Positions 3,183 to 26,837 of a stretch of 64,000 nt of DNA are shown piece by piece. This DNA comes from Larkinella humicola. GTDB lineage: Bacteria; Bacteroidota; Bacteroidia; Cytophagales; Spirosomataceae. Each line of letters begins with the position of its first letter. Position 1 is the first letter of the stretch. Both the position numbers and the translations under genes were made by a program. Location of the stretch: contig NZ_VTWS01000005.1 of the NCBI RefSeq assembly GCF_008727875.1, positions 248,001-312,000 of the forward strand, given 5' to 3'. A model generated the notes under the pieces. That model made no database searches and had not been told where the DNA came from. It saw only the letters and a program-made list of their open reading frames with translations.

Positions 3183-3258
3183 TGGAAAGCCTTCTGGCCG
3201 TTTGTGTGGTAAAATAATAATTATTATTTTACCACACAAACGGCCAGAAGGCTTTCCA
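3183..3258. repeat. Perfect 76-bp palindrome
   Basis: Positions 3183-3220 and 3221-3258 are exact reverse complements with no spacer; the centre is AATAATTATT. The arms contain GGAAAGCCTTCTGGCCG. It lies upstream of the 193-aa gene, with no open reading frame worth calling. Possible roles are a cruciform, a bidirectional terminator, a transposon end remnant or a resolution site. An assembly fold-back artefact must be excluded. Confidence 0.9.
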
Positions 3259-3679: not shown

Positions 3680-4132
3680 TTATAAGCCGAGCTTGTTTAA
3701 AAGTCTCTCCCAAAAACCTTTTTTCTGATTCGATTTAATAGTACTTTCTACTTTGCTTTCTATTTCCTGTCCTAGGATTTCAGCGTCTTTTTGCTTGAAA
3801 TATTCCTTTTTGTCTTGAAAGTCCTTATTCCGTCCTGCGTTAATTTGCTCTTTTTTCCACTTCCCAGCCCATTCAATCTTACTTTGTTTTATCCAGTAAT
3901 GCGATTGGCATTCAAAACCCCAGTTACCAATTGAGGGACTTAGTGAAACCGTCTCGCCGTCGAACAATAACCGCCAGTCAGTGGGTGAAATAGGCGTAAC
4001 AACTCTATTGCCACAGCCGCACACACAATTGTGTGCGGCTGTGCAATATTCGATGGAGACGTAAAGTACTCCCTCGTCCAGCGTTTTCGGAATGAATTTA
4101 ACGAAGCTGTGCTGTAAGGACTTGATCTTCAT
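3680..4132 (-). CDS. DUF6527-like Cys-rich protein of a Ubl operon
   Basis: A 150-aa protein. Cys30, His34, Cys36, Cys38, Cys40, Cys75 and His78 (a CVCGCG core, then FECQSHYW) form a probable metal-binding centre. The C-terminus is a charged Lys-rich helix. I recognise it as the DUF6527-type partner that follows multi-ubiquitin and ThiF genes in bacteria. Its start lies 35 nt inside the upstream ThiF gene, so translation is probably coupled. A role as ligase-like adaptor or as deconjugase is possible; neither is shown by the sequence. Confidence 0.7.
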   Translation of the reverse strand: MKIKSLQHSFVKFIPKTLDEGVLYVSIEYCTAAHNCVCGCGNRVVTPISPTDWRLLFDGETVSLSPSIGNWGFECQSHYWIKQSKIEWAGKWKKEQINAGRNKDFQDKKEYFKQKDAEILGQEIESKVESTIKSNQKKGFWERLLNKLGL

Positions 4133-5288
4133 TGTACAATTCCGAATTGTTTATCGCGTACAGACTATTATGCTCACCCTCCAGATCGTGGTAGAAGTTA
4201 TTTAGCTTTTTCCACTTGATGACCGCAAGATTAGCGTTAAGCGCATTTAACTCCGCAATTTGAATGTTTGCATCGTAGTCATTATTACCCTGTTCGCCAA
4301 CAGGTAGGCGTTTATGTAAATGAGCATTTTGTGTCTCTGTAGAGGTCGTTATGCGAATCATACCTGTCAACCGGTCCCCTACCAGATTTACACCCAAACC
4401 TACATCGATAAACGCTATGCCTCGTGACCGCAGATAGCTCGCGATTAGCCCTCTTGCCTCATTACGATCCAAACTTATAAAAACAAAGTTCATCATGTCG
4501 AGCAATGAAAGGTTGGCGGCAGTAACGTAATACGGATGAGCTACAATTCCCTTGTGCATATTCGAATATTTATTTCGGTAATACTCCACTTTTAGTGGCT
4601 CCGAATCTAATTCCTCAAGGGATGCGGCTCCCGGCGAACGGAATGCATTGTGCGTATGCAGGACGTCGCCATCAAATTGGTGAATCTCCCAAACGGGTGT
4701 TTTAGCCACCAAATCTAAAATGTACGCCCCTGTCCCACCCAGTCCCACAATCGCTATCTTTTGCCCTTCAAGCCTAGCATTTAACTGGTAAATGTTGGCC
4801 CGACCCGAGTTAGTGTCCAGATACTGGAAGGGCGCGGCATCATCTTCCATCGGTACAACCTTAAACGTTTTCTCCGTAGTGTCCGGGTATAGCGTCTTTG
4901 CTGGAGCCGAAATTATTTCGGCGTATCGCGTTACCTTGTGGTAATAGTCGGCATACCCCTCTGGCGGTTTATTCGAGAAAGCAAACTGCACGATCACACC
5001 CGGATATAACTCCTGAGTGCAATTCTGATGCTCGATGCCTGTAATACGTCTACCATCGGACCTGTGTGGATACTCGCCCGTAAAGTGAATAACGTGATAG
5101 CTGGGTCGTGTGGTCGTTTGGCCACTAGTGTCGAGTGACGTGACCAGGATTCCGAAACAAAGCTCCCGGCTAGTGTTCAGGTAGGGAATATGATGCACAA
5201 GCAGGTATGGCCCCTTGAGTTCTATCTCATACCCTTCGTCGCGCAGACGCTTCAGGTCCGGGCTACGATTTATCAGTGGCTGTTGCAT
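4098..5288 (-). CDS. E1-like ThiF enzyme with fused N-terminal domain
   Basis: A 396-aa protein. Residues 1-150 form an N-terminal domain of the DUF6791 type, perhaps E2-like. Residues 170-390 are a ThiF/E1 adenylation domain with the ATP-binding loop GLGGTGAY (182-189), Asp206/Asp208 and Arg217. E1 enzymes adenylate the C-terminus of a ubiquitin-like protein and pass it to a cysteine. Here the only cysteines are Cys44 and Cys90, both in the N-terminal part, so any thioester would form there and not in the ThiF domain. Its 5' end overlaps the tri-Ubl gene by 26 nt and its 3' end overlaps the DUF6527-like gene by 35 nt: one operon. Confidence 0.8.
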   Translation of the reverse strand: MQQPLINRSPDLKRLRDEGYEIELKGPYLLVHHIPYLNTSRELCFGILVTSLDTSGQTTTRPSYHVIHFTGEYPHRSDGRRITGIEHQNCTQELYPGVIVQFAFSNKPPEGYADYYHKVTRYAEIISAPAKTLYPDTTEKTFKVVPMEDDAAPFQYLDTNSGRANIYQLNARLEGQKIAIVGLGGTGAYILDLVAKTPVWEIHQFDGDVLHTHNAFRSPGAASLEELDSEPLKVEYYRNKYSNMHKGIVAHPYYVTAANLSLLDMMNFVFISLDRNEARGLIASYLRSRGIAFIDVGLGVNLVGDRLTGMIRITTSTETQNAHLHKRLPVGEQGNNDYDANIQIAELNALNANLAVIKWKKLNNFYHDLEGEHNSLYAINNSELYNEDQVLTAQLR

Positions 5289-5958
5289 TGAATTGCATCT
5301 CGTTTTTGACCTTTACAACACTTCCGACGTCCATTGTCCCTTTGGGGTTTTGCTTCGGCCCTTTCGAGTAAGCCACCGTGTATTCCATCTGCCCATTATT
5401 GACATACTGTCCAAACGCCAGCACTACAACTTGTTCATAGGAGATCGTTTTCTGCATCCAGCTCGTAGGCGTTGCGTTTACAATCAGCGTGTATTCTGCT
5501 TTTGCTTTAGAGACGAAGTGCTCTTTACTGGGGCGAGCCAAATTCACAATAATGCCGGGTCGGATTAATTCGTCCTCAAAAGGCGGATCTATTTTTAGAT
5601 AAACCTCATCCTCATCATCAATCTGGCCCAGTTCCTTAATCTCTTCGAGCGAGATATACTGTTTAAACCAGACGTGATCTACTCCGTTTATAGACAAATC
5701 AAGCTTTTTGCGAACGTAGAAGTATTCGATCTCGGGCCGGGCCAGATTCACGCGGGCGTCGTTCAGTATAAGCTCATCCACCCACGGCTTTGCTACTGAA
5801 AGGTACAATTCAGTATCTGGTGGAATTCCGGCAAGTTCTTTTAATTCTAAGCCAGTTTTGTACTGAGCACTACTTTGGTAAGTTTTGCCCTCTATGACAA
5901 AATCCAAAACTTTATTCTTGTCCCCACCGGGGTTACTAAAATTTAATTCGAAAGACAT
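5263..5958 (-). CDS. Multi-ubiquitin-like protein (three Ubl repeats)
   Basis: A 231-aa protein. Three beta-grasp-like repeats are visible at about 17-83, 86-150 and 154-226. The first two share ELYLSV/EVYLKI strands and VNLARP ends; the third is divergent and ends in FNATATDKS. Proteins of this multi-ubiquitin family are the modifier of bacterial ubiquitin-like conjugation operons. The C-terminus lacks the Gly-Gly of processed ubiquitin and ends in Ser, so the conjugation chemistry may differ. It is the first gene of a tightly overlapping three-gene operon. An anti-phage role is inferred from related operons and from the defence-rich island. Confidence 0.8.
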   Translation of the reverse strand: MSFELNFSNPGGDKNKVLDFVIEGKTYQSSAQYKTGLELKELAGIPPDTELYLSVAKPWVDELILNDARVNLARPEIEYFYVRKKLDLSINGVDHVWFKQYISLEEIKELGQIDDEDEVYLKIDPPFEDELIRPGIIVNLARPSKEHFVSKAKAEYTLIVNATPTSWMQKTISYEQVVVLAFGQYVNNGQMEYTVAYSKGPKQNPKGTMDVGSVVKVKNEMQFNATATDKS

Positions 5959-6264: not shown

Positions 6265-6732
6265 TTATATTAACTCATGGAGCATTCCGATTTCAAGGTT
6301 AATGCCTCGGCTAATAATATCTTGCAACAGTCCCACTGACACGCTTTCGTATTTAGAAATCGATATACCAAGCTGCTGATATGAAATCACTCGGAGCGGA
6401 TGATTTTCGCTGACGAGCGTGTACCCCATAATTCTGGCGTAAACCATAGCGGCTACAGTTCTGGCGAGAAACATAGAACAGCAGCCGTTAAGAAGGCTAA
6501 TAACGTGAGTGATTTGGCTTCCACTTAATGAAACCACCTTCAATTTTCCTTGGCTGATCAACAATTTTGAAAGAGCTATGTCGGGCATTGAGAGATCCCC
6601 CGTTGCTAGTTGTTCATAATAGCACAAATCCGGGATGTAAAACTGTACGTCTTCATCTTCTAAATAATGAAGAATGCCAAAACGCTGCAACCTAACGGGC
6701 AAGTTCACTTCTGTCACGACCAAATTCTTCAT
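6265..6732 (-). CDS. PIN-like partner of the ImmA/IrrE protein
   Basis: A 155-aa protein. The layout recalls a PIN-fold toxin (N-terminal strand, helical centre, then a LARTVAAMVYARIMGYTLVS-type helix-strand and a final GLLQDIISRGI). The usual acidic metal ligands appear replaced: TE after the first strand, NGC where many PIN proteins have GE, and SEN near the end. It may be an inactive or divergent PIN domain. The ATG overlaps the stop of the upstream HTH-protease gene by 4 nt, the typical coupling of a two-gene toxin-antitoxin-like unit. Assignment is by fold impression only. Confidence 0.5.
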   Translation of the reverse strand: MKNLVVTEVNLPVRLQRFGILHYLEDEDVQFYIPDLCYYEQLATGDLSMPDIALSKLLISQGKLKVVSLSGSQITHVISLLNGCCSMFLARTVAAMVYARIMGYTLVSENHPLRVISYQQLGISISKYESVSVGLLQDIISRGINLEIGMLHELI

Positions 6733-7793
6733 CTCATTGAAATTTTTGAAAGTAGAATGTTACGGAAGTCGGCTTCACTGCGCCCAGCCAACTGTGCAGC
6801 TTTGTCAAGCCCAATTTTATTTTCGCTCAGACAGCGATATAACATTTGCAGGAAACGCTGCGGCTCCTCTTCGCCAAGGTAGTGGCCGAATGTATAATCC
6901 TCAAAATCATTTGTCTTCCACTTCTGATAAGCGTCAATGGTTATGAGATTGGCTCTCCGGGCGCGAACCATAATGGCGTAAACCGATATTCCGTAAAGCT
7001 GTTTGATGCGCTGTAGCTCAGGCATTGATATCGCCGTGCGGTTTCTGCCAAACTCTGCAACCAGAATATCTGTGGGGAGCATAATGGCCCCAGCAAAAGC
7101 ATTGCAAAGTTTTTCAACCACGTCTATTGTGAGATCATCTGCCATTATTAAGAGCAAATGACCCAGCTCATGTAACAGTGTAAAACGTATCCGGCAAATG
7201 TCTTGTGGTCGATCATTAAGAATGATAACAGGAAATTTCCTTTGGTCCACCCATCCTGAAAGTCCTTCATGTGTGTACGCATAACCAAATTTTACTTTGA
7301 TAATCCGAATACCCTTCTTCTCCAGTACATCCACCAGATTATGCAATGGACCATCACCGAGCTTCCAGCGTTTGCGAAGTTGGATGGCGGCCTTTTCAGC
7401 ATCATGCTCCGTTCTAATCGGGTCATTATCCTTCAAAGGATTATCGAAAGGCCTGTTCTCTTTAGCAATGGCTTCGAGTTCCATGTAATTCGCCAGAGCA
7501 TTACTTGCCAATTCTTCAACGGTAGTTCGCTGGTCCATTGATAAGGACATTCCTTCACGGTAGTTTACATAATTTAGCTTGAATGATACTTTATGGGCAG
7601 TTACTAAACGATCGATACTGTAGCCAAATGCTTTGGCAATAGCCAACAGCGTAATACTATCAGGAGTGCGAACACCGTTTTCATAATGGCTAATCGCCTG
7701 CTTAGTAACCCCCACCTCAGTCGCTAGCTCCTCCATTGTCATTCCCTTTTGCTGCCTAAAGCGGGTAATGTTGGTTGCGAGTGTGTTTAACAT
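6729..7793 (-). CDS. XRE HTH - ImmA/IrrE metallopeptidase
   Basis: I place the start at Met 7793, giving 354 aa, because the preceding in-frame 19 residues run through the promoter. Residues 1-65 are an XRE DNA-binding domain (QQKGMTMEELATEVGVTKQ). Residues 100-260 are an ImmA/IrrE (COG2856) Zn-peptidase with the HELGHLL motif. About 70 further residues follow. Such proteins cleave repressors or act as antitoxin-like regulators in mobile elements. It is the first gene of a two-gene unit with the PIN-like gene (4-nt overlap), preceded by a Bacteroidota-type promoter. Confidence 0.85.
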   Translation of the reverse strand: MLNTLATNITRFRQQKGMTMEELATEVGVTKQAISHYENGVRTPDSITLLAIAKAFGYSIDRLVTAHKVSFKLNYVNYREGMSLSMDQRTTVEELASNALANYMELEAIAKENRPFDNPLKDNDPIRTEHDAEKAAIQLRKRWKLGDGPLHNLVDVLEKKGIRIIKVKFGYAYTHEGLSGWVDQRKFPVIILNDRPQDICRIRFTLLHELGHLLLIMADDLTIDVVEKLCNAFAGAIMLPTDILVAEFGRNRTAISMPELQRIKQLYGISVYAIMVRARRANLITIDAYQKWKTNDFEDYTFGHYLGEEEPQRFLQMLYRCLSENKIGLDKAAQLAGRSEADFRNILLSKISMR

Positions 7794-7820
7794 AACATGT
7801 CGATTGTGTTTTGATGTATA

Positions 7821-7856
7821 CAAATATAATAAATTAAATAAAGTCAACACAACAAT
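7821..7856 (-). promoter_or_regulatory. Bacteroidota-type promoter for the HTH-ImmA gene
   Basis: On the minus strand the sequence has TATATTTG (positions 7828-7821), matching the -7 consensus TAnnTTTG, with TTG triplets about 16-21 nt upstream as candidate -33 element. It lies about 30 nt before the chosen start, which supports that start. Confidence 0.5.
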
Positions 7857-8724: not shown

Positions 8725-11685
8725 ATGGCTAAAACGAAAACAGAAATCATCGCTCAAATAAGATTTGGTATAAATCAACTTTCAGCCCGCAATGGTCAAA
8801 TGGATTTTGAGCACATATGCCGGTTTTATGCTCGTAGCCGAATTCACATCAATATTCTTCCAGCTACTGGACCTGTGCAAGCTGGTGGAGATCAAGGACG
8901 TGACTTTGAGACGTTTCACAGCTATATGGCACAATGTTCTATTGCTTCAACGTCTTCCGTTGGTTTATTCTCGAAGGAGCCGGTGGCATTTGCCTGTTCA
9001 CTTGAACAAGATCCGGCTAAGAAAAATGGAAAAATAGAAAGGGATGTAGCCACTATTCTTAAATCAGGCGTTCCTGTAGAACGTATTTATTTCTTTAGTG
9101 GACAGGATATTCCCGTGTCGAAGCGCCATAAAGTTCAAGAAAGAATTCGCAAGAGTACTGGCGTTCCTATTGAAGTTATGGATGCCCAATCACTAGCCGA
9201 GCACCTTTCGGATTCTGACCTATTTTGGGTAGCCAACCGCTATTTAGATGTACCTAGCGAATATTACGTTTTACCAGCGGGACCTACTTGGTATAATGAT
9301 TTAAAAGCCGAATTTGAACGGCGTCCAAATCAAGATTCCCCCCCAACCTTCGAGGAATTTTCGGAAATCAAGTCAGCCTTACGCCGCATATACAAAGACA
9401 CTAGCCTGAAAATAGATCTACCCTTCTGGTTTGATAAACTATCAATCTATTTACAAGAAGGTATTTTTCGCTCATTGAAGCGTAAAGCGATCTATGAGCA
9501 ATTTGTAGCCAAGCTTATCGGTCAGAATGATACAACCAATCAAGAAGAATTAATACGGGATTATTACACTGATTTTACTGAGTATCGAACTCCCGCTTTG
9601 TTAGAGGATGCGACAATTTTGCTATCATTCATTATTAATTCAAAGCATAGAACTGGGCATCTCATTGATATTGATGAAATCGCTGTATGGAAAGAACAAT
9701 TGTGGTCAGTTTTAGAGCAGGAATATGCGGTACCCACCGAAAACAACGGGAGAAAGGTTTGGCTTGCTGTCATTATGGCACAATTCCAATTCTTGATTGC
9801 CAAGGGAAATAATCCTATAAAAGCGCTGTCAACTTTAGCCGCGGGCTTGCAAGAAGCTGTTCCTTACTTCGAAGGTGCAGTCTTTTATCCATTCCGTGAA
9901 TTGTCTAATTCACTAAATCATATAATCGAGGTTTTACTTGAACTCGACATTAATGATCCGGTAGTCGGTGAGTTAGAATCTATTGCTCGATTGGTTGATG
10001 AAGAAGTTGGAAAGCGATATGGCCAACTAGAAGCGAGCGAACAGCTAAAGCAACGAGCCGTTAAATATTTTCAAAAAAAACGCTATTTGGAAGCACTAAA
10101 TGCTTTTCATCAGTTAAAGTACAAATGGGTTAGCGCCAGTTCTCCTAAATGGACCATCTTAGCTTCTATTTTCATTGCGGAATGCTACAAGGAGTTGCGT
10201 ATGGATTATGCCAGTCGGTATTACGCCTTTGCTGCTGCTCAAGTTATAGTCAGATCTGAGGACGTAGATTTGCAAAAATATTTACCAAAAGCACTTATTA
10301 TCGCTGCGGAGGCTTGTTACAGATCAGGGGCCTGGCTGAGTTACGTCGATACATTGGATTTGTGTATACTATCTCATAGAGTAGCAACTAAGGATTTCGA
10401 AGTATATGATGAAAGCAAACAACATGTTGGTATTATCTTTCACCCCGCAATGATTCTGTATATCGCTAAGCGATTTAATCTGGGTAGTCAATACCTATTC
10501 ACTTACCGTTTTAAGCGATGGGGATATATTAGCGAAGAAATCGACCAAATGCTTGATGAAATAAAAGCTCGCTACAATCAACAAACGGATCAAGAGTTAT
10601 ATAGATCTCTACAAGGTCAACTCAATGATCGTGTGTATAATGATTTCGGGTTGAAACGAACGGTAAGCTTTGAGACATACGGCAGTAGATGGATGATAAC
10701 CTTTGAAAATGATTTCAATACAAATGCAGCTGCAGAGCAATTAGTAGCCATTATTCAAATTTTAATGGTTGAGTTGCATGATACTGAGCTGTACCTTTTA
10801 CGATCAACAATTTACATTGATTTTGACATAAGGGATGACATAAGTATGCCAGAACAGTATACCTTTTCATCGAATGAAGAAATTCATTGGCGAGTAAATT
10901 TCCCAGCTCAGCCAAGCGAGGATCTCTTACATAATTCACAAGTTTTTTACTCTGCTTTAGTTATTTCAATTTTACAGGAAATTTCGTTGCTGCCAATTGA
11001 TGAGTTAATGGCGATTATTCACACCAAGTTCGACGAACAAGGTCTAGTTGGTCGATTGTTATTTGTTGCCACTTACCAGGTCTTATATGAAGAGTTTGTC
11101 TCTAAAATCGAATTTAATGAGTCTGCTCGTCAGCATTTTGATGATGGGATGCAGTTTAGTCAATTAGAGTCACGGAGCAATCCTAAGCTTCCTTGGAATG
11201 AAACTGTAGCACCTAAATACGATCAATCGGTTGCTTTACAGGCTATCCAGAATAGGATGTCATTTATGTATCCGTATGAAGTAACGCTACCCAAGCTCAA
11301 ACAGTCGAGCAGTTTTAAGCAAGTCGTTCAAGTCTTGCGAGACAAGGGTTGGCTTGATTGGCAGATCGCTGTAGCCATAGGCAACATCATTGTTAATTAT
11401 AAGATTCAAAAAACTTCTCCCATTTACGATCCAGCGGTAATGAAAGCTAGAGCGTTTGACTTCTACCGCAAACCTGAAAAAGAGTGGTACATACCTATCC
11501 CCGAATTGATACTGACAGCGGAGAAAATTGAAATGATTTTAAAGACATCAACAACATTGAGTGTTTTGCAGTCTTTCGGTTTAGAATCTCACTCTGATAC
11601 ACCGAACGTCGAAGCTATTTTAGAATTGCTAGCGAAACGTTTCAATTATCTAGTTGACGGCGCTGATGTTAAGGTATTTAACTGA
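8725..11685 (+). CDS. 986-aa protein, nuclease-like N-terminus and helical repeats
   Basis: Residues 45-170 resemble a PD-(D/E)XK (Mrr/Cap4-like) nuclease domain: GGDQGRDFETF (54-64), the strand FACSLE (89-94), then NGKIERD. Residues 190-986 are almost entirely helical with TPR-like stretches (about 440-540); no Walker A motif is visible, so it is not an obvious STAND ATPase. Such effector-plus-solenoid proteins occur as stand-alone anti-phage genes, with the long part as sensor. No overlapping partner gene lies on either side. The family assignment is tentative, because the usual (D/E)xK lysine is not in its usual place. Confidence 0.6.
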   Translation: MAKTKTEIIAQIRFGINQLSARNGQMDFEHICRFYARSRIHINILPATGPVQAGGDQGRDFETFHSYMAQCSIASTSSVGLFSKEPVAFACSLEQDPAKKNGKIERDVATILKSGVPVERIYFFSGQDIPVSKRHKVQERIRKSTGVPIEVMDAQSLAEHLSDSDLFWVANRYLDVPSEYYVLPAGPTWYNDLKAEFERRPNQDSPPTFEEFSEIKSALRRIYKDTSLKIDLPFWFDKLSIYLQEGIFRSLKRKAIYEQFVAKLIGQNDTTNQEELIRDYYTDFTEYRTPALLEDATILLSFIINSKHRTGHLIDIDEIAVWKEQLWSVLEQEYAVPTENNGRKVWLAVIMAQFQFLIAKGNNPIKALSTLAAGLQEAVPYFEGAVFYPFRELSNSLNHIIEVLLELDINDPVVGELESIARLVDEEVGKRYGQLEASEQLKQRAVKYFQKKRYLEALNAFHQLKYKWVSASSPKWTILASIFIAECYKELRMDYASRYYAFAAAQVIVRSEDVDLQKYLPKALIIAAEACYRSGAWLSYVDTLDLCILSHRVATKDFEVYDESKQHVGIIFHPAMILYIAKRFNLGSQYLFTYRFKRWGYISEEIDQMLDEIKARYNQQTDQELYRSLQGQLNDRVYNDFGLKRTVSFETYGSRWMITFENDFNTNAAAEQLVAIIQILMVELHDTELYLLRSTIYIDFDIRDDISMPEQYTFSSNEEIHWRVNFPAQPSEDLLHNSQVFYSALVISILQEISLLPIDELMAIIHTKFDEQGLVGRLLFVATYQVLYEEFVSKIEFNESARQHFDDGMQFSQLESRSNPKLPWNETVAPKYDQSVALQAIQNRMSFMYPYEVTLPKLKQSSSFKQVVQVLRDKGWLDWQIAVAIGNIIVNYKIQKTSPIYDPAVMKARAFDFYRKPEKEWYIPIPELILTAEKIEMILKTSTTLSVLQSFGLESHSDTPNVEAILELLAKRFNYLVDGADVKVFN

Positions 11686-13390: not shown

Positions 13391-13599
13391 AATCCACAAC
13401 GAATCAGTAACCGTATGCGGGTTATTGAGATTTAAATGCCGAATACGGACGAAACTCAAAAAAAGTCTTAAAGTGGTTACAGGGGAGTGGTGATGAGATC
13501 GAGTGCTTTAAAATGTTGAATGTTTTCAATACAATCTAATCAAGTATAAATAAAAGCTACTATCTTATGACAAATCACAATTAATTTGACTTATAACAA

Positions 13600-14538
13600 A
13601 TGATCCTTAATGAAGCGTTCGAAATAGTTTTGTCGGAGTATCCGCAAGCAGTGAGGCAACCATTCAATAGACACCCACTAGCCAAATTTGTTAGAACGAA
13701 AATAGTTGAGCTCATTACCACTGGTGTTGATCTCAATTCAAGATACTTGGTAAGAGGAAGCACAGGCCAAGGAGCTTGGGCCCGCTGTCCATGGGTTGCG
13801 ATTTTTGATAGGCTAATAACTGAGTCTGCTCAAAAGGGGTTCTACATTGTATACTTATTCAAAGAAGATTATTCTGGTTTGTACTTATCTTTAAATCAGG
13901 GCGTTACAACTATTCGCTTAGAATACAAGTCGGATACAAAAAAAGCATTACGTATTAAGGCTAATGACTATTTAGCCAGATTAGGTGAGAAAGCCTCTGG
14001 GTTAAACCATGGTCCTATTGATTTATCAACAACCAGTAGCTCTACATTAGGTGCTGATTATGAGGCTGGCTCTATATGTTCCGTATACTATCCTATAAAT
14101 GAAATCCCAAGTACAGATATCTTATTTAAGGTCTTAAGCAGGTTTTTATCTCTTTACTCATATTTAGTGGAAAATGATTCTGTCTTTGGTGGAACTACAG
14201 TTGAAGAGGATGAAGAGCTATATTTTGAAGATTTAACAAAAATACGTTTACATAAAAGGATTGAACGAAATACAAATTTAGCGCTAGCGGCTAAAGCATT
14301 ATATAAACCAATTTGTCAAGTTTGTGGATTTGACTTTTTTAAACACTACGGAGAGATTGGCAAGAATTATATTGAAGCTCATCATTTAACACCTTTATCA
14401 GGTTTAAAGGGTCAAAGATTAAAGTTAAGTCCTTCAAAAGATTTTGCTTTGCTTTGTTCAAATTGCCACAGGATGATTCACCGCTCTGAGTTTATCAGCG
14501 ATATTGAGGGCTTCAAAAAAGCTCACTATAAGGGATAG
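13600..14538 (+). CDS. McrB-N (DUF3578) - HNH restriction-like endonuclease
   Basis: A 312-aa protein. Residues 25-185 match the DUF3578/McrB N-terminal reader domain (GSTGQGAWARCPWVAIFD, YIVYLFKEDYSGLYLSLNQG). Residues 225-312 are an HNH nuclease with CQVCG, EAHHLTPLS and CSNCHRMIH. McrB-type readers bind modified cytosine in DNA, so this is a likely modification-dependent (type IV) restriction enzyme acting without a GTPase. It lies between two decayed copies of a small HTH gene, as a single-gene cargo. No methyltransferase is nearby, consistent with type IV. Confidence 0.8.
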   Translation: MILNEAFEIVLSEYPQAVRQPFNRHPLAKFVRTKIVELITTGVDLNSRYLVRGSTGQGAWARCPWVAIFDRLITESAQKGFYIVYLFKEDYSGLYLSLNQGVTTIRLEYKSDTKKALRIKANDYLARLGEKASGLNHGPIDLSTTSSSTLGADYEAGSICSVYYPINEIPSTDILFKVLSRFLSLYSYLVENDSVFGGTTVEEDEELYFEDLTKIRLHKRIERNTNLALAAKALYKPICQVCGFDFFKHYGEIGKNYIEAHHLTPLSGLKGQRLKLSPSKDFALLCSNCHRMIHRSEFISDIEGFKKAHYKG

Positions 14539-14571
14539 GAAAATCTATTCAAACCTGATAAGGCACGCGCA

Positions 14572-14695
14572 GGTGGAAAATGTGAAAGGAAATGGTCCAA
14601 CCCATCCGAGAAGATCTGAAACTCTCGTTCAGCCAGACTTCACCAGGTTTCAGAGACACATTTTTTCCACTAATGACCGGTAGTTATCATGGATT
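14572..14695 (-). pseudogene. Decayed copy 2 of the small HTH gene
   Basis: A shorter, more diverged match to the 3' part of the gene at 15123-15470: the GTTCAGCCAGaC and CCAGGTTTCAgAgACACA stretches and the GGATTTCC region line up in order. It starts just after the HNH gene. Only about 40 codons are recognisable and the frame is broken. Confidence 0.6.
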
Positions 14696-14726
14696 TCCTA
14701 CAAACCGCCAGATTAATAGAATTTCA

Positions 14727-15098
14727 TTACAAAACCTTATTATTCTGGTTGATCCAGGATAATACCTTAGTATCAAAATCTCTTATTGCATAATTTAATT
14801 CAACTACTTGCCGTTTCATATTTTCGCTAATATTGTCATAACCATAAGGTTTTAAATGCATCCCTTCATATTCTTGACTTATATTTTTTAGTGTTCGGCT
14901 AATGGCAAAAACTGCCGTTGCCTTTGTTTCTTCTAAGTCATCAGGTAGCTCAAGTCCTTCTACTAAAACAGATGCCTGATTAATTGCCATTATCAAATCA
15001 TTTATTGCATATTTCCCCTTACTAAATGCTTTCTGGCCAATACTTACTTTTTGGTTGTGAAGAAGCTCTAATCTTGATTTTAGCCTTGGAGTATTCAT
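14727..15098 (-). CDS. Uncharacterised 123-aa helical protein
   Basis: Not recognised. The protein appears all-helical (KGKYAINDLIMAINQASVLVEGLELPDDLEET, then a second amphipathic half ending in DTKVLSWINQN). There is no signal, membrane segment or metal motif. It lies between decayed copy 2 and the intact HTH gene, on the same strand as the latter and 24 nt downstream of it, so the two may be cotranscribed. It could be an immunity or antitoxin-like protein; this is a guess. Confidence 0.55.
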   Translation of the reverse strand: MNTPRLKSRLELLHNQKVSIGQKAFSKGKYAINDLIMAINQASVLVEGLELPDDLEETKATAVFAISRTLKNISQEYEGMHLKPYGYDNISENMKRQVVELNYAIRDFDTKVLSWINQNNKVL

Positions 15099-15122
15099 TG
15101 TAATAGTATTTATGGTTGTATT

Positions 15123-15470
15123 TCAAATTGCCTTGGCTGGAGGAAAGTGTGAGAGAAAATGATCTAGTTCGTCAGGGAAAATCCGAAACCCGCGTTCAGC
15201 CAGGCCGTCAGCCGGTTTCAAAAATACAGTCTTTTTGCCGCTATTGAAAGAACGACCATTGTGAATCCAGCCATAGACTGTAAGCGTTGAAAAACCCGTT
15301 AAAAATGCAACATCTTCAACGCTGTAGAGCGCCTTGGACCGGATTGTGCCTAGCTTGGTGAGCTCTTTCAGGTCAGCCATCATCGATCGCATTTCATTTT
15401 CGAATGTTTTGTCCATACTTGATTTCGATGAAAGTCCAACATTCAATATACCGGACTTGGTTTGTTTCAT
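15123..15470 (-). CDS. HTH protein, excisionase/MerR-like (intact copy)
   Basis: A 115-aa protein. Residues 40-105 have the layout of the helix-turn-helix_17/excisionase group (YSVEDVAFLTGFSTLTVYGWIHNG, then a basic wing and RIFPDELDHFLS). Residues 1-35 are a short polar helix. This family binds DNA near attachment sites or origins of Bacteroidota elements. Two decayed copies lie at 13118-13390 and 14572-14695 in the same orientation, making this gene the apparent anchor of a cargo insertion hotspot. A second, different HTH gene of this kind is at 23992. Confidence 0.75.
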   Translation of the reverse strand: MKQTKSGILNVGLSSKSSMDKTFENEMRSMMADLKELTKLGTIRSKALYSVEDVAFLTGFSTLTVYGWIHNGRSFNSGKKTVFLKPADGLAERGFRIFPDELDHFLSHFPPAKAI

Positions 15471-15503: not shown

Positions 15504-16109
15504 TTATAAATTATAATTCCGATGCCAGGTGTAATAATCCGGTGGCGTAAAACCTGCATACTCTGAATATCCAGCCGTAAACAATGAGTACTCCAGGTCT
15601 TCACCAATCCGAATGCAATCGGTCAATGCCAAATCAAATGATTCAAATTCTTCCGGCAATGACAGTAAAAAATCCTGCTCACTTTGCTCAAAGTCCTCGA
15701 CTTCCGATTCACGATGCGTTGATAACAGGATGATATTGTCTGCACCAGCGAGGTAAGCCAACCTTGCTACCTTGGAGATCCGCAGGAAACGGCTTAACGT
15801 AGCCGATTTGCCTAACGGTTGAAGGCTTAGAATTCGGTTCTTCTGTAGCAATAGAACATAAACTTTGTCCGGATCTTTATTCTCTTCCCGCTCCCAGAAG
15901 GCTCGGAAAAGCATCAAAGCATCCGCGGGCGTCTCAATGCTGATTGGAACATAGTTTTCAGGATAGACATACTCGATTCTGAATTGTGGCAGCAAGCTCA
16001 GACTATCCAGCGAAGGAAAGAAACTAAGTACCTCGCTAACCGTTCGTGAAGTTTGTGGGGGCGCACTTGCGCCGAATGCTACAGGAATGTAGTTTTGCTC
16101 CTGACTCAT
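15504..16109 (-). CDS. RadC/JAB-like protein with altered active site
   Basis: A 201-aa protein. Residues 70-190 follow the strand-helix order of the RadC JAB/MPN domain found in Bacteroidota elements (YVLLLQKNRILSLQPLGKS, AYLAGADNIILLSTHRE, SEQDFLLSLPEEF, ALTDCIRIGEDLEYSLFTAG). The catalytic HxHP motif reads STHRE, so one metal ligand is lost and zinc peptidase activity is doubtful. The role of RadC-like proteins is unclear even when intact. It lies 33 nt upstream of the HTH gene on the same strand. Confidence 0.6.
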   Translation of the reverse strand: MSQEQNYIPVAFGASAPPQTSRTVSEVLSFFPSLDSLSLLPQFRIEYVYPENYVPISIETPADALMLFRAFWEREENKDPDKVYVLLLQKNRILSLQPLGKSATLSRFLRISKVARLAYLAGADNIILLSTHRESEVEDFEQSEQDFLLSLPEEFESFDLALTDCIRIGEDLEYSLFTAGYSEYAGFTPPDYYTWHRNYNL

Positions 16110-16335: not shown

Positions 16336-16542
16336 TTACTCTAATTTGATGATAAGCCGTTTGTTAAGCGCTGTCGCTATTTTCTGAAGTGTATCAATTG
16401 TTAAATTCTGATTCCCATTTTCAAATCTGCTAAATGTTGATTCAGCAACCTCAATTTTTTCACCTAGTTCTTTTTGAGTCAATCCTACACTTAACCTTGC
16501 CTGTTTAATAAGTTGGCCGACCTCATTTTTAATTTCTGACAT
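16336..16542 (-). CDS. XRE-family antitoxin-like regulator
   Basis: A 68-aa protein that is a single XRE helix-turn-helix (IKQARLSVGLTQKELGEKIE, then STFSRFENGNQNLTIDTLQK), of HigA/antitoxin size. No toxin gene of the HigB/RelE type is adjacent, so it may be an orphan antitoxin or a regulator of island genes. Palindromes downstream may be its operator. Confidence 0.75.
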   Translation of the reverse strand: MSEIKNEVGQLIKQARLSVGLTQKELGEKIEVAESTFSRFENGNQNLTIDTLQKIATALNKRLIIKLE

Positions 16543-16630
16543 AGTCTGTTTAAGTTTAAAGCGAATGTATATCTCTGGTTGAAGATGTAGTTAATAAACT
16601 AAACCAACGGTCAAGGCTTTGAGCAAACGG

Positions 16631-16804
16631 CTATCTAGTGCCATTTTCTACAGTTCTTCTTTCTAGATCAGCAGCGATCAATGAGTTTAAGTAGCGGTTT
16701 AACGGGATTCCACTCTCCTGACACTTCTCCTTCATTTTTTCAAACCGTTCCGTTGAAACCCGAAGCGGATACCCTTTGCCCGATCGTTTGCTTTTAGAAC
16801 TCAT
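16631..16804 (-). CDS. Small ribbon-helix-helix-like protein (57 aa)
   Basis: ATG at 16804, TAG at 16631. The sequence starts basic (MSSKSKRSGKGYPLRVSTE) and continues RFEKMKEKCQESGIPLNRYL and then SLIAADLERR. A short beta strand followed by two helices is the pattern of CopG/Arc-type ribbon-helix-helix DNA-binding proteins. Such proteins regulate plasmid copy number, mobilisation or TA operons. The gene is short but has a good start, a compact fold and a plausible position upstream of the XRE gene. Confidence 0.6.
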   Translation of the reverse strand: MSSKSKRSGKGYPLRVSTERFEKMKEKCQESGIPLNRYLNSLIAADLERRTVENGTR

Positions 16805-16999
16805 CCAATAATTCTTGCCGTTTATTTGACTAATTATAGCGATTTGTTTGACCTAAATATGGTGATTTTTTTCATTAATTCGGGTATCACCAAATAATAG
16901 TCAAACCGTAGAACGGTTTACAATTAAACCTGAAAATTCAGCCAGAATCACGTGACTTTTGATTAAATTGTACTGTTTCAGCTCCAAAAACACATTGCT

Positions 17000-17269
17000 A
17001 TGGCCGCAGGAAATAAACAAACAATCCGGGAGTTCATCGATGAAATGAATGCCTCCACCCAGGAGATTCTACAACACCTCAATGACAACGGTATTAATTA
17101 CAATTTGAACGCCTGGGTCACCATTGCCAAATACGCCAACCTGTTTAACATAGGCAATACATCCACGATTTCAAGTTGGATCAGCCAGGGAATTATTCCA
17201 CCAGAGAACGTTATCGAGATTACGGCCCTAAATGGTCTGAAGCTTATTAAGGCTGTAGCCTATAGTTAA
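17000..17269 (+). CDS. Small protein with possible HTH
   Basis: An 89-aa protein, family not recognised. Residues 38-70 (WVTIAKYANLFNIGNTSTISSWISQGIIPPEN) resemble a short DNA-binding helix-turn-helix in which a Trp-containing recognition helix is followed by a wing. The N-terminal 30 residues are a polar helix. It is the only plus-strand gene between 14.5 and 26.9 kb and is followed directly by a terminator, so it is transcribed against the phage-like block; it may be a regulator or CI-type switch component. Confidence 0.55.
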   Translation: MAAGNKQTIREFIDEMNASTQEILQHLNDNGINYNLNAWVTIAKYANLFNIGNTSTISSWISQGIIPPENVIEITALNGLKLIKAVAYS

Positions 17270-17276
17270 GTCTTTG

Positions 17277-17318
17277 GAAAAACAGCTTGGCCAAAGAGTA
17301 AACAGGCTGTTTTTCTAT
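17277..17318 (+). terminator. Terminator between convergent genes
   Basis: Inverted repeat GAAAAACAGC (17277-17286) and GCTGTTTTTC (17306-17315). The T-run on the right strand and A-run on the left allow use in both directions; it lies between convergent genes ending at 17269 and 17337. Confidence 0.7.
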
Positions 17319-17336
17319 ACAATTTGGACAATCACT

Positions 17337-19376
17337 CTAAAACGCGATCAGTACCCCAGTACACGTCTTACCCGATTGATAATTGTTCACCCGATTCAGA
17401 TAAAAATACCCACCCGCTATTTCGATGTCCCCAATTCGAACGTTTTTGAGACGGATTGGAAGATTTGGATTAAGCGTGGCCATATCGACCGGGCGCAAAT
17501 ACAGGGAAGGAATAAATACCCTAGGGCGCCGAAGGACCCGCTTTAAACCGCCGAAGTACCGTCCGATCAAAGGCACTTCACTGACTTGGCCAGGCACCGG
17601 GCTAAAAGCCAGCGAGAAGTTATTCTCATTGGTTACAATGGAATTTTCGCGCCGGGCAAACCAACAACCGGTCAGCGTTACCGTGGCTGGCTTGATGTTA
17701 CCGTTGATATCGAGAATCTGCGTAGCTACCTCGAACGTTTTCGTTGGTTCCACCAGAATAATACGTGGACTGGTGGAGTTTTTATTGATCTGGATGGTAT
17801 CTCCCTTGCCAATGATCGTGCGCGTTTCAATCAGTAACGGTGAACCAAAATCACCTACCTGCCGGGTTGAGGGCATAGTCGCCGAAAAGGGCAACTCAAA
17901 AAGGGCCGTTTCGGTTGACTGTGCCGTGTTTTCACAACGAATAACCCCATCTCCATACCCTTTGTCAACGCCGTCCTGCTCTTTGTATTTCACATAGTTT
18001 TTCTGGGCATACGGCTCGATCCGGAACTGAACTTCCGGCGCTTCACTTTCCTCAACCTTTGCCGACCAGTCAACTGCATTTACCCGGTTGTTGGTCAGAT
18101 CGGTCAACTTGATTAACTCTACCGTTTTGCGCTGATTGTCAATATTAAACCACCCCGACATCTGGAACGCAATGGCCTTTAGAAGCAGAGAGCATTTCAG
18201 ATCGGGGAGGTTTCGGGCAACCAACCACTTATCGCCCGTGTAAACGATCGGATCTGGCTCAAAGCTGGCGTAGGCGTATTCACTGGTTTGGAAAATTTTA
18301 ACCTGGTATTGAGCAATATTAGTTCGTTTTCTGACCGTCAACCTAATTTTTACAACGTCATCTTTTTTCAGCAGGACGGAAGTATCCACTTCGATTCGAT
18401 CCCGTTTTTCGACGAGTATAGATGTATTATAAAGGGTTTTACTCCAGTATCCCTGGTGGACATTAGACCCATTTACCTCAATGATTAGCATAACCTCAGG
18501 AGCTCCTAAATGAACGTGGGCAACAAACTCCTGGAATGCAACAACCCGCAACCTCATGGCTGTATCGGCTTTATACTGGAAAAGTGTCGGGTTATAATTA
18601 TCCGTCTTGCCGTCGTAGAAGAACGGGTCGCGGTTGTCAATAGAGAACGGCTGTATCCGATTTAACCCCCTATTGACTAAATCAATCGTTGAGGCATCAG
18701 CAAGTGTTACCCGCGCCCGTCGGGCATCTACCCAGTTTTGATCCCGGCTGACCGGCTCGGCTTCGCAGAAGGGCAACACCATTGCCTTAAATAGCGGATC
18801 TTCCAGCCAGGCACCCACCGGTTTATAGCCCTCTTCCTGCAAAGATTGTGCGACGACGTCGCGGACAAAGACGCTTGGAAATATGGCATCCTGGGGCACA
18901 ATACCCTCGCTGACGGTTCCATAATCTAAAATTGGGTAGCAGACGCCTTCCGTAGCCCCGGCGCGCGCGTTGATCTCGTCCAGTGTCCAGGGATGATCCA
19001 GCCGGGAAAGATCCAGATCCCGAATGGATTTTTCCCCCAGGCTATCGAACAGCCCACGGTGATTTTCGTAAATGACGACTTTCCAGATCCCTTGAAATCC
19101 TTTTAGTTCCGCCCGGCCATCGAAGATAGTCTCCTCATCTTCAATGATCCGGGCAGGAATGAGTTTATAGGGATGCTGGCCACCGGCGTCCAATTGTTCA
19201 GCATGTTCCAGGATTTTCTGAATTGCCAGCGTATTCGGTAAATTGAATTGATTCGTGTAACTCAATTCCAGCGAGTCAGGAGAGGTTAAATCATTCGCCT
19301 GGTAATTGATTGCGTAATCGACCTCGGCGACCCATTGCCACCCCGCTTGCCCGAAAAAGTAAATTCCATTTTCCAT
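17337..19376 (-). CDS. Large phage tail-like structural protein
   Basis: A 679-aa protein. It is beta-rich throughout with no signal peptide. The N-terminus (FFGQAGWQWVAEVDYAINYQ, then LELSYTNQFNLPNT) and the Gly/Thr-rich middle look like Bacteroidota phage tail or baseplate hub proteins, but no diagnostic catalytic motif is visible. It forms a minus-strand block with the 95-aa coiled-coil gene and the terminase genes upstream. Keeping only one large structural gene suggests deletion of most of a prophage or a satellite that modifies a helper tail. Family placement is by overall character. Confidence 0.5.
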   Translation of the reverse strand: MENGIYFFGQAGWQWVAEVDYAINYQANDLTSPDSLELSYTNQFNLPNTLAIQKILEHAEQLDAGGQHPYKLIPARIIEDEETIFDGRAELKGFQGIWKVVIYENHRGLFDSLGEKSIRDLDLSRLDHPWTLDEINARAGATEGVCYPILDYGTVSEGIVPQDAIFPSVFVRDVVAQSLQEEGYKPVGAWLEDPLFKAMVLPFCEAEPVSRDQNWVDARRARVTLADASTIDLVNRGLNRIQPFSIDNRDPFFYDGKTDNYNPTLFQYKADTAMRLRVVAFQEFVAHVHLGAPEVMLIIEVNGSNVHQGYWSKTLYNTSILVEKRDRIEVDTSVLLKKDDVVKIRLTVRKRTNIAQYQVKIFQTSEYAYASFEPDPIVYTGDKWLVARNLPDLKCSLLLKAIAFQMSGWFNIDNQRKTVELIKLTDLTNNRVNAVDWSAKVEESEAPEVQFRIEPYAQKNYVKYKEQDGVDKGYGDGVIRCENTAQSTETALFELPFSATMPSTRQVGDFGSPLLIETRTIIGKGDTIQINKNSTSPRIILVEPTKTFEVATQILDINGNIKPATVTLTGCWFARRENSIVTNENNFSLAFSPVPGQVSEVPLIGRYFGGLKRVLRRPRVFIPSLYLRPVDMATLNPNLPIRLKNVRIGDIEIAGGYFYLNRVNNYQSGKTCTGVLIAF

Positions 19377-19416
19377 GAAACAGCTTATATGAATTGTTGA
19401 TAGTACGTTAAAGCAA

Positions 19417-19704
19417 CTATAATCTTGAGCGATCGGTAAAACTTAGGGCCCAACGAATCGATCTCAGTTTCTGTTTTTGTTGGTCCATATCCGCAAGATG
19501 TTGTTGCCATTGTTGTTCGATCTCCACATAGTAGACATTGTGCTCCCCGCCAGTAATCATGTTTTGCATAAGTGAATTCCAGATTACTTCGCGTTGGTTT
19601 CCCAAATCTTTGATCAGCTGGTTCAGATCGAAGATCCGCTTTTCAGTAGCTGCCTTGGTTAATTTCATCTCAACGAGAGATTCATTTGCTTTTTCTGTTG
19701 CCAT
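19417..19704 (-). CDS. 95-aa coiled-coil protein
   Basis: Not recognised as a family. Residues 15-85 are a strongly helical coiled coil with regularly spaced Leu/Ile and many Gln/Glu (IFDLNQLIKDLGNQREVIWN and QQWQQHLADMDQQKQKLRS). It lies 40 nt upstream of the tail-like gene and just after the terminase stub, so a small head-tail or scaffold-like part is possible. No other function can be read from it. Confidence 0.55.
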   Translation of the reverse strand: MATEKANESLVEMKLTKAATEKRIFDLNQLIKDLGNQREVIWNSLMQNMITGGEHNVYYVEIEQQWQQHLADMDQQKQKLRSIRWALSFTDRSRL

Positions 19705-19730
19705 GATAAAATGGGTGGATTCGTAATTTT

Positions 19731-19946
19731 TTAAATCATTTTAAGACCCAGAATCCAAGTACGACGAACCTTGGCAGGCCCCATTTTCGGTTTGTTGTAT
19801 TTGGTGAACACCGCACCTCGGACGGCATCGATGGCGTGGTTATAGGCATCGATCGGATCGTTTGTTGCTTTTCTACCAGCCATGATCCATTGGTAGATTT
19901 TAACTTCCCGAGCCAGATCCTTTTTAGTGTGAATTGTGTTTAGAAA
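19731..19946 (-). pseudogene. C-terminal stub of phage large terminase (TerL)
   Basis: A 71-codon open frame preceded by an in-frame stop and no convincing start. It carries DLAREVKIYQWIMAG and NDPIDAYNHAIDAVRGAVFTK, the hallmark end of the TerL nuclease domain (the NHxIDAxR helix). The ATPase and most of the nuclease are missing, so it cannot package DNA. It follows the small-terminase gene in normal order, showing that an internal deletion removed most of TerL. Confidence 0.8.
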
Positions 19947-25395: not shown

Positions 25396-26637
25396 TTATT
25401 TTTTCTGTTCAAGAAACGATGTTAATAAACTGGCATACTGAAGTTTCACCTCATCCTCAAAGCTGTCAAGATAATTTTCCGTCGTTCGAATATCCTGATG
25501 CCCCAAACTCTCACTGATGAATTCAATAGGCGCTCCGGATCGCTTTAAAACCGTACTGAACGAATGTCGAGCGGTGTAAGTCGTTATTTCTTTGTTGATA
25601 CCCAAGGCCTCAGCGATCCGGCCGATATATTTATTAATGGTCTTGACAAATTGCTGCACGGCTGCTAATTCCCGTTCGGCGCTCATACCAGGTTCTAGAA
25701 TACCAAAAACGTACCTATGCGGTGTAGCAGGTTTTTGTCCCCATTTAGTGATAATTCGCCAAACATCGTCCGTAATAGCTACCACGATCGGCTTTACTTC
25801 TCGTTTGGTCCGCTCAGTTTTTGCCCGAACAAATCGAATTTGTTTTGATCCAATTTGCTGATATGTCAATCGGCACATATCCTTTGGGTTCATCCCATTG
25901 CAGAGGTAAGAGAAAAGCCATAGATCTCGAGCTCGATCTTCCGCACTCATTGGCTCAGCCTGGTAGTGGAATATCTTCTCGATATCAGCAAGGGTAAGTG
26001 CCTTCTTTACATTTCGACCTGTAGGGATTTGGTACCGGCGCTTTGTAAACGGATAATTTTCCCGGTCAATGCCCCCGTCTTCGATCGCTCTGTTATAAAT
26101 TGTCCGTAGTGATCGCAAATAAATACCAACAGTAGTAATAGAATTGCCAATACTTAACATCCATTTTTCAAATCCTTGTAACCATTGAGGGGTAACATCA
26201 CGATAAGATAGCAGAGCTTTGCTTTGGTGGTAATTTTGTATAGCGTTTAGAGCACATCTGTAACTACTTCCCGTTCCCGCTCGACCTTCGTTGGTAAGCT
26301 GCTCAATGTAACGATCGAATCCTGCAAATACACTGTTGGATGGAGCTTCTACTGTACCTGCATAACGAGTCTCAAATTCTTCAAACGTAAATACTGGTAA
26401 ATCGCGAATAACCTTTTCGGCCCGCTTGCATGCAGTTTCGAGTAAAGCCTTAGTATCCTTGATGAAATCTTCGCGAGGTTTTGGTTTGCCAACTTTTTCC
26501 CACTGTGATTCCGTTAAGTTGATGTTGGTCGTGTAGTACTGTTGCTTCCGTTTGAAAGTGACCCGTAATTTGACCGGATAAGTACCGTCATTCTTCTGGC
26601 GCCGGGTATCTAGGTATAGGCTGACAATCCCACTCAT
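25396..26637 (-). CDS. Tyrosine recombinase / integrase
   Basis: 413 aa from Met 26637 (MSGIVSLYLDTRRQ). The longer frame to 26766 would translate the arm-type repeats as FVCKFVCK, so it is rejected. N-terminal arm-binding domain (residues 5-90), SAM-like core-binding domain (100-200) and catalytic domain with the R (CNGMNPKDMCRLTYQQ region), TARHSFSTVLKRSG and GHQDIRTTENYLDSF (Tyr nucleophile) segments. It integrates and excises the island at a tRNA-Asn 3' end, whose fragment lies 200 bp upstream of the start. Confidence 0.9.
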   Translation of the reverse strand: MSGIVSLYLDTRRQKNDGTYPVKLRVTFKRKQQYYTTNINLTESQWEKVGKPKPREDFIKDTKALLETACKRAEKVIRDLPVFTFEEFETRYAGTVEAPSNSVFAGFDRYIEQLTNEGRAGTGSSYRCALNAIQNYHQSKALLSYRDVTPQWLQGFEKWMLSIGNSITTVGIYLRSLRTIYNRAIEDGGIDRENYPFTKRRYQIPTGRNVKKALTLADIEKIFHYQAEPMSAEDRARDLWLFSYLCNGMNPKDMCRLTYQQIGSKQIRFVRAKTERTKREVKPIVVAITDDVWRIITKWGQKPATPHRYVFGILEPGMSAERELAAVQQFVKTINKYIGRIAEALGINKEITTYTARHSFSTVLKRSGAPIEFISESLGHQDIRTTENYLDSFEDEVKLQYASLLTSFLEQKK

Positions 26638-26703
26638 AAAAGCTTCTTGATGGTTTGTCAACTTGAGATCGGCTGAGTTACCGATAATCAGAAGGTTAAA
26701 CCA

Positions 26704-26725
26704 TTTGCATACAAATTTGCATACA
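26704..26725 (+). repeat. Paired 10-bp repeats, putative integrase arm sites
   Basis: TTTGCATACA at 26704-26713 and 26716-26725, matching the pair at 3646-3667 with the same 12-bp period and orientation; only one of the two spacer bases differs. They lie between the integrase start and the right attachment core, where arm-type binding sites are expected, and could also serve integrase autoregulation. Confidence 0.65.
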
Positions 26726-26837
26726 AATAGCTCATAAAAACAAGTGGGAAGACGAAAAAATATCATTAATAATTACTTAATTACCTGTTTATTAGTCTTA
26801 TTACGAAACGAGGACGAAGTAATGAAAAACAAAAATT

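Follow-up and report, generated by a model that had tools for sequence, protein, structure and literature searches.

The 64,000-nucleotide stretch of Larkinella humicola DNA considered here (contig NZ_VTWS01000005.1, positions 248,001–312,000; hereafter the window) encodes a ubiquitin-like protein (Ubl), an E1-like enzyme and a DUF6527 protein, and raises the question of how a Ubl could be activated and passed on by a compact, widespread module that has neither the processing protease nor the recognised E2 of its Bub sisters. The answer favoured here, with modest confidence, is that the operon is a mobile accessory module for Ubl activation, probably for conjugation, and a JAB-less sister of Bub that would work by the mechanism set out below. 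The Ubl gene (5263–5958, 231 residues) contains three stretches matched by Multi_ubiq (PF14452, E = 6.4e-24). The E1-like gene (4098–5288, 396 residues) encodes DUF6791 over residues 10–159 (PF20590, E = 1.5e-55) and a ThiF domain (PF00899, E = 7.7e-8), and matches NF004805 PRK06153 (E = 1.8e-167). The DUF6527 gene (3680–4132, 150 residues; PF20137, E = 1.5e-24) carries a putative metal site, CxCGC...CxSHY. All three lie on the minus strand and are transcribed in the order Ubl, E1, DUF6527, the E1 and DUF6527 open reading frames (ORFs) overlapping by 35 bases. The overlapping operon of a tri-Ubl, an E1-like ThiF protein and a DUF6527 protein proposed in the sequence-only reading thus holds in both coordinates and Pfam content.

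Conservation of the set was assessed over 100 loci: the window, 15 loci from a genome search of the phylum, the best 80 of at least 585 stretches encoding relatives in one contig scan, and four viral contigs. The 80 are the top-scoring stretches, so that the set is skewed towards relatives of the window, and it includes duplicates and near-duplicates (L004 and L082, L005 and L068, L006 and L029, and others). Profile searches found the E1 and DUF6527 in 100 of 100 loci and the Ubl in 98; in the two loci lacking a Ubl (L026 and L101) the sequence starts at most 137 bases from the beginning of the E1. The same-order trio in 98 of the 100 loci, including L097 with its broken genes, far exceeds chance grouping.

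The operon is an accessory, mobile module. At E ≤ 1e-8 the E1 was found only in its own genome among the 39 searched (its own, eight of the same genus and 30 more from the family or order). A housekeeping gene is rejected on its absence at this cut-off from 38 of 38 other relatives, and the fixed housekeeping position that would have spoken against the sequence-only reading did not occur. DUF6791 is present in 14 of 395 Bacteroidota genomes, the own genome included. Relatives are carried on 115 plasmid records (43 mobilizable, 40 conjugative and 32 non-mobilizable) and on the four viral contigs; a search of phage records for relatives of the operon gave no match. In its own genome the operon belongs to an accessory stretch flanked by a tyrosine integrase (25396–26766) and by a chromosomal block whose last gene is rsmG-like (L128:12688–13368, assigned by eye). 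In an empty-site comparison, four relatives of the right flank did not share the left flank; for the two of these that were checked, this flank is found mostly on a different contig of the window's own genome, and the exact island ends are therefore not fixed. A second integrase and primase/helicase-like genes, recognized by eye, lie directly to the left of the window (L128, which is G000:C16:228001–248000, at 16373–19821).

The window Ubl ends in ...FNATATDKS and the terminal glycine is absent. A C-terminal serine is found in 97 of 98 Ubls, in 84 of 84 after clustering at 90% and in all eight plasmid relatives inspected from the 115 records; the lone exception, L097, is a gene split into two ORFs, with TDKS at the end of the second. 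The Ubl and E1 genes overlap by 26 bases (5263–5288, minus strand). In each of the 95 loci examined the E1-frame ATG occupies this position, and 8 of 8 annotated plasmid relatives share the overlap. The count of 95 omits L013 and L017, where the E1 is split, L026 and L101, which lack a Ubl at a contig end, and L097, in which both E1 and Ubl are broken; this shared ATG is the first start codon of the mechanically defined E1 ORF in 84 of the 95, the other 11 having a further in-frame start upstream. The occurrence of a serine-ended Ubl together with this conserved ATG at a 26-base overlap is new. Within the overlap, all 95 loci have TCN as the Ser codon, and E1 residue 8, which is read across it, is exclusively His, Arg, Leu or Pro. 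These four residues are the complete set permitted by a fixed Ser codon (TCN) followed by a stop codon starting with T, and selection on the end of the Ubl, rather than on E1 residue 8, is therefore the best explanation. The Ubl also aligns up to its C-terminal DKS with PDB entry 9cd2 (ZDHYS365 multi-ubiquitin domain protein; E = 4e-13), a full-length relative ending in TDKS that is known here from the Ubl alone. This entry is presumably that of Gong 2025.

Judged from its coding sequence, the Ubl appears to be encoded in its mature form, without JAB processing, which would explain why no JAB has been retained. Since the tag protein ends in serine and not in the usual glycine, its chemistry is worth testing. 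A search of the whole 7.86 Mb genome with Prok-JAB (PF14464) gave no match at E ≤ 0.001; the same search was positive for 8 of the 14 control genomes. A genome-wide search with Prok-E2_E (PF14462) likewise gave no match, and its 14 control genomes were silent too; this search matches both Bub-type plasmids that served as positive controls and not the DUF6791-type plasmid. The lack of a nearby E2 or JAB gene noted from the sequence is borne out at the operon itself, where the Pfam E2 and JAB families have no match. A RadC-like protein at 15504–16109 was considered as the missing JAB and rejected: it falls below the cut-off and lies ∼9.5 kb away, with other genes between.

Among the closest known counterparts is the Citrobacter Bub system (PDB entries 9ea4, 9eae and 9eav), which has homologous Ubl, E1 and DUF6527 proteins and similar types of regulator nearby. 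Alignment of profiles with hhalign gave 99.0% over 202 columns for the E1 against the E1 half of BubCD, 98.8% over 115 columns for the Ubl against BubA and 98.7% for DUF6527 against its Bub equivalent; the Bub-type comparison sets comprised 11 E1, 8 DUF6527 and 12 Ubl sequences, with L107 and L119 of uncertain type. The window operon differs in lacking both Prok-E2_E (BubB) and a JAB domain, DUF6791 fused to the E1 filling the JAB slot. The Ubl ends differ as well. The BubA constructs in the PDB end at Gly229, immediately ahead of the BubB part, from which JAB processing to glycine is deduced, whereas nothing follows the serine in the window Ubl.

An AlphaFold2 model of the E1 (mean predicted local distance difference test score, pLDDT, of 93, from 72 E1 sequences) has Citrobacter BubCD (9eae) as its best Foldseek match, with E = 6.5e-13 and a TM-score of 0.47 by query length, and the eight top matches are all BubCD chains. 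BubCD also ranks first when the E1 family profile is compared with PDB sequences, over the ThiF part only. In the E1 alignment, which covers 97 of the 100 loci (86 clusters at 90%), Asp208, Arg217, Lys233 and Asp274 are conserved in all 97 rows; we take these to be equivalent to the adenylation residues of MoeB. Cysteine occurs in at most 17 of 97 rows at every column of the ThiF part save column 272, where it is found in 75 rows and the window has serine. Tyr338 is conserved in 96 of 97 rows and is aligned by hhalign with Tyr370 of BubCD, the residue changed to phenylalanine in PDB entry 9eav according to its title; a loose pattern finds tyrosine at this place in 10 of 11 BubCD-type sequences. 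Two papers on Bub are said to describe oxyester intermediates and filaments of Ca2+-bound tri-Ubl.

In the DUF6791 part, all 97 rows keep His65 and Ser105, and 93 keep Cys75; position 75 is histidine in the window, L020 and L066 and phenylalanine in L087. Cys75 is retained in all eight plasmid relatives inspected, including that of Spirosoma oryzicola. Comparison of the window and L020 E1 genes gave a proportion of synonymous differences (pS) of 0.74 and of nonsynonymous differences (pN) of 0.15, with dN/dS about 0.06 and dS saturated. On these values the His75 form of the enzyme appears to be under purifying selection, so that Cys75 seems non-essential in that lineage.

These residues bear on the possibility that DUF6791 is a hidden E2-like domain, making the protein an E2–E1 fusion that transfers the Ubl through the conserved Cys75 loop, on the model of Cap2 from the cyclic-oligonucleotide-based antiphage signalling system (CBASS), which is itself an E2–E1 fusion. 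The order predicted in the model is a helix, four strands, a loop containing His65 and Cys75, two strands and a helix, and the His65-to-Cys75 spacing of 10 is presumably comparable to that in eukaryotic E2s. In addition, the motif [FLM]-S-x-[KR] at residues 104–107 has a parallel in all 11 BubB sequences, which carry WSRH or FSWH, and in two loci (L013 and L017) DUF6791 and ThiF are separate genes. The replacement of Cys75 by histidine in the window and L020 enzymes, between which purifying selection operates, argues in the opposite direction, and so does the failure of profiles to link DUF6791 with BubB or with any of the E2 models in Pfam. Homology of DUF6791 with BubB is thus unsupported by profile (hhalign, rank tests and a Pfam scan of 42 of 97 domains), and an E2-like DUF6791, retained solely on topology and motif, is regarded as possible rather than probable.

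The DUF6527 model is confident (pLDDT 94, from 65 sequences). It has no PDB structure match at E ≤ 0.001, and the family profile has no match among PDB sequences. The CxCGC...CxSHY residues are kept in at least 99 of the 100 aligned rows.

Taken as a JAB-less sister of Bub, the operon could work as follows. The Ubl would be translated already mature, making JAB processing unneeded, and the E1 would adenylate its C-terminal carboxylate. Since no catalytic cysteine is conserved in the ThiF domain, the Ubl may then pass to a non-cysteine acceptor, either Tyr338 or a residue of DUF6791 (Ser105 or His65), and from there to a target. DUF6527 would be a metal-bound factor that handles the target or the Ubl. 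The adjacent DNA-damage or stress regulator, in the window a helix–turn–helix (HTH) protein with an ImmA/IrrE domain, would switch the operon on in the service of defence or a stress response. We tentatively propose, as a more specific claim, a branch of Ubl conjugation in which a mature modifier is activated at a conserved serine, the acceptor in the E1 is not a cysteine and the fused DUF6791 is E2-like with a dispensable cysteine, so that conjugation would require no terminal glycine and no cysteine thioester. If true, activation of a serine-ended modifier by an enzyme with no catalytic cysteine would broaden the definition of ubiquitin-like chemistry and provide a three-protein system for in vitro tests.

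The same features would also be compatible with an E1 that activates the Ubl without conjugating it to protein, the product being a carrier, such as a sulfur carrier, or a Ubl altered at its end, much as MccB modifies the C-terminus of a peptide, with multi-Ubl assembly as the output. PaaA, ThiF and MccB are among the structural neighbours of the E1 model, neither operon nor genome has an E2 or JAB match, and the C-terminal residue of the Ubl is not glycine. The nearest solved relatives are nevertheless Bub proteins, and the three conserved genes include neither a rhodanese nor a metabolic enzyme. Moreover, Ubls of one, two and three domains occur (38, 26 and 34 of 98, respectively), and with such variation a fixed assembly is not conserved. 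Activation without conjugation is considered unlikely.

Several observations weigh against a conjugation module of the proposed kind. Serine is an unusual C-terminal residue for a Ubl. The overlap test is not clean, because E1 residues 6 and 7 are also constrained and the two frames share the burden. Two of the 12 Bub-type Ubls also end in serine (L114, ...GSPSHS, and L119, ...SGRS, the latter of uncertain type), although none has a TDKS-like end, and the final serine alone therefore does not separate the two groups. A recognised E2 is missing: hhalign of DUF6791 against BubB gave 0.3%; in rank tests with 1254 decoys BubB ranked 444th at best by the DUF6791 profile, and the BubB profile placed DUF6791 no higher than 20th; and the E2 Pfam models gave no match to the 42 of 97 DUF6791 domains scanned. 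As to the proposed role, 34 of 75 loci have no M78 (ImmA/IrrE) protein within 3.5 kb and 53 of 65 have no IetS-cluster protein.

The layout itself is not a discovery, since it fits a subset of operons described in 2006. Iyer, Burroughs and Aravind (PMC1779556) described operon type 6e, sporadic and mobile, including a JAB-less subset with one to three Ubl repeats, an E1 in which an uncharacterised N-terminal domain replaces JAB, and a Cys/His protein that putatively binds zinc. The domain is unnamed in that text, and we infer that it is DUF6791. The printed signature, C-x3-C-x35-38-H-x2-C, differs from the window CxCGC...CxSHY, which is a Cys/His set of other order and spacing, and the C-terminal serine is not discussed in sections 14 and 16 of PMC1779556. 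The description of the operon as a minimal three-gene system consequently stands as to the three genes but needs qualification, since the E1 carries a fused DUF6791 and the layout had been described. A search of the literature, mostly outside subscription papers, found no paper on the exact DUF6791-type variant beyond those cited here. The operon is a real member of a known, little-studied kind with unusual chemistry that can be tested. The multiubiquitin cassette of Synechocystis plasmid pSYSX is similar as a mobile set of multi-Ubl, E1 and metal-protein genes beside HTH and DUF955 genes, and differs in carrying an E2-like gene (PMC4963859).

Ubl-type chemistry serves phage defence in BilABCD and in CBASS Cap2/Cap3. 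Bil differs in its JAB protein and in its E1, which combines two adenylation domains with a Cys domain (PMC11354881), whereas the window operon has no JAB and its E1 of 396 residues has a single ThiF match. According to PMC13373217, protection against phage by Bub has yet to be demonstrated. An annotated Bub operon in the comparison set (L106: a Multi_ubiq–Prok-E2_E fusion, Prok-JAB–ThiF and DUF6527 at L106:6837–7178, PF20137) is preceded by WP_001567866.1 and WP_001567865.1, the accessions of CapK and CapS in that paper.

Upstream of the Ubl operon in the window, and co-directional with it, lie a gene for a 155-residue protein without a family match (6265–6732, minus strand; 59% identity to L020:8558–9025) and its partner, a 373-residue HTH and ImmA/IrrE (M78) protein (6729–7850, minus strand; PF01381 and PF06114; PADLOC RmrA, E = 5e-41, and capP, E = 2e-11). 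The five-gene order is identical in Arsenicibacter rosenii (L020), the pair again standing ahead of the operon. Among the 75 loci whose upstream sequence reaches 2.5 kb or more, 41 have an HTH/M78-cluster protein with HExxH within 3.5 kb upstream, counted by cluster membership rather than by a Pfam scan of each; 36 of the 41 genes are divergent and five, including that of the window, are co-directional. From its sequence the RmrA/CapP-like protein is probably a regulator or a toxin–antitoxin (TA) partner.

The second of these alternatives would allow the main role of the operon to be addiction or stabilisation of mobile DNA, together with the adjacent HTH–M78 pair, rather than phage defence. 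A TA-like pair stands immediately upstream in the window and L020, a 2016 paper places 70% of multiubiquitin proteins next to potential TA loci in which DUF955 is one component (PMC4963859), and addiction or protection against invasive replicons was proposed by Iyer in 2006 (PMC1779556). The divergent orientation of 36 of the 41 M78-cluster genes is, however, what would be expected were they regulators like CapH+CapP, and CapW or CapH+CapP occurs beside 219 of 544 Bub operons, acting upon DNA damage (PMC13373217). A primary role in addiction seems improbable.

Other neighbours support defence or DNA-damage/stress control, short of proof. IetS- and IetA-cluster proteins occur in 12 and 10, respectively, of the 65 loci that extend 5.3 kb or further upstream, PADLOC confirming one IetA and five IetS among them. 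A prevalence control for IetA was abandoned: the search was positive in 198 of 198 genomes and 14 of 14 controls and gives no presence rate, because common AAA proteins match. Its only match above 300 bits (G191:C45) lies ∼3.3 kb from the DUF6791 E1 of that genome. The operon of a Spirosoma oryzicola plasmid is near a class II prokaryotic Argonaute (pAgo) and a Cas4-like nuclease, and a Runella plasmid has, by annotation, a similar gene set. In L138, ImmA/IrrE and HTH genes run divergently from the operon, as does the gene for a WYL protein in L139. In L023, L047 and L052 a PADLOC 'dCTPase' deaminase, which we take to be the anti-phage dCTP deaminase, is inserted between the E1 and DUF6527 genes; in the Bub-type loci L115 and L116 this slot is occupied by an annotated phosphotransferase. 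An anti-phage role is suggested by the neighbours only, and in the loci that have them (IetAS, the dCTPase-family deaminase, Argonaute, HTH–ImmA/IrrE and WYL regulators) they make a role in defence or stress directly testable.

The proposed setting of mobile DNA with other defence cargo is upheld by a restriction-like gene on the same stretch (13600–14538, plus strand), which encodes an MrcB_N and HNH protein likely to act in modification-dependent restriction. A 986-residue protein (8725–11685, plus strand) has nothing above the cut-off in Pfam and no match in NCBIfam or PADLOC; by eye its start (GGDQGRDFE...FACSLEQ) is nuclease-like. Downstream of the operon, a long, near-perfect inverted repeat was found by eye at 3183–3258 (tggaaagccttctggccgtttgtgtggtaaaa... 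plus its complement). A serine protease of the SDH/ClpP type (PF01972; 1125–2162, minus strand) lies 1.5 kb downstream of the DUF6527 gene. Related protease ORFs directly follow DUF6527 in L044 and the Bub-type L117 and lie downstream of the E1 in L107, the window and L044 being the only two DUF6791-type loci with such a protease near the operon. Finally, L057, from a contig titled uncultured archaeon, has at 13571–15366 another E1-family ORF, whose neighbour is BubB-like (E = 2e-5), ∼2 kb from the DUF6791-type operon, and the two layouts may stand side by side there.

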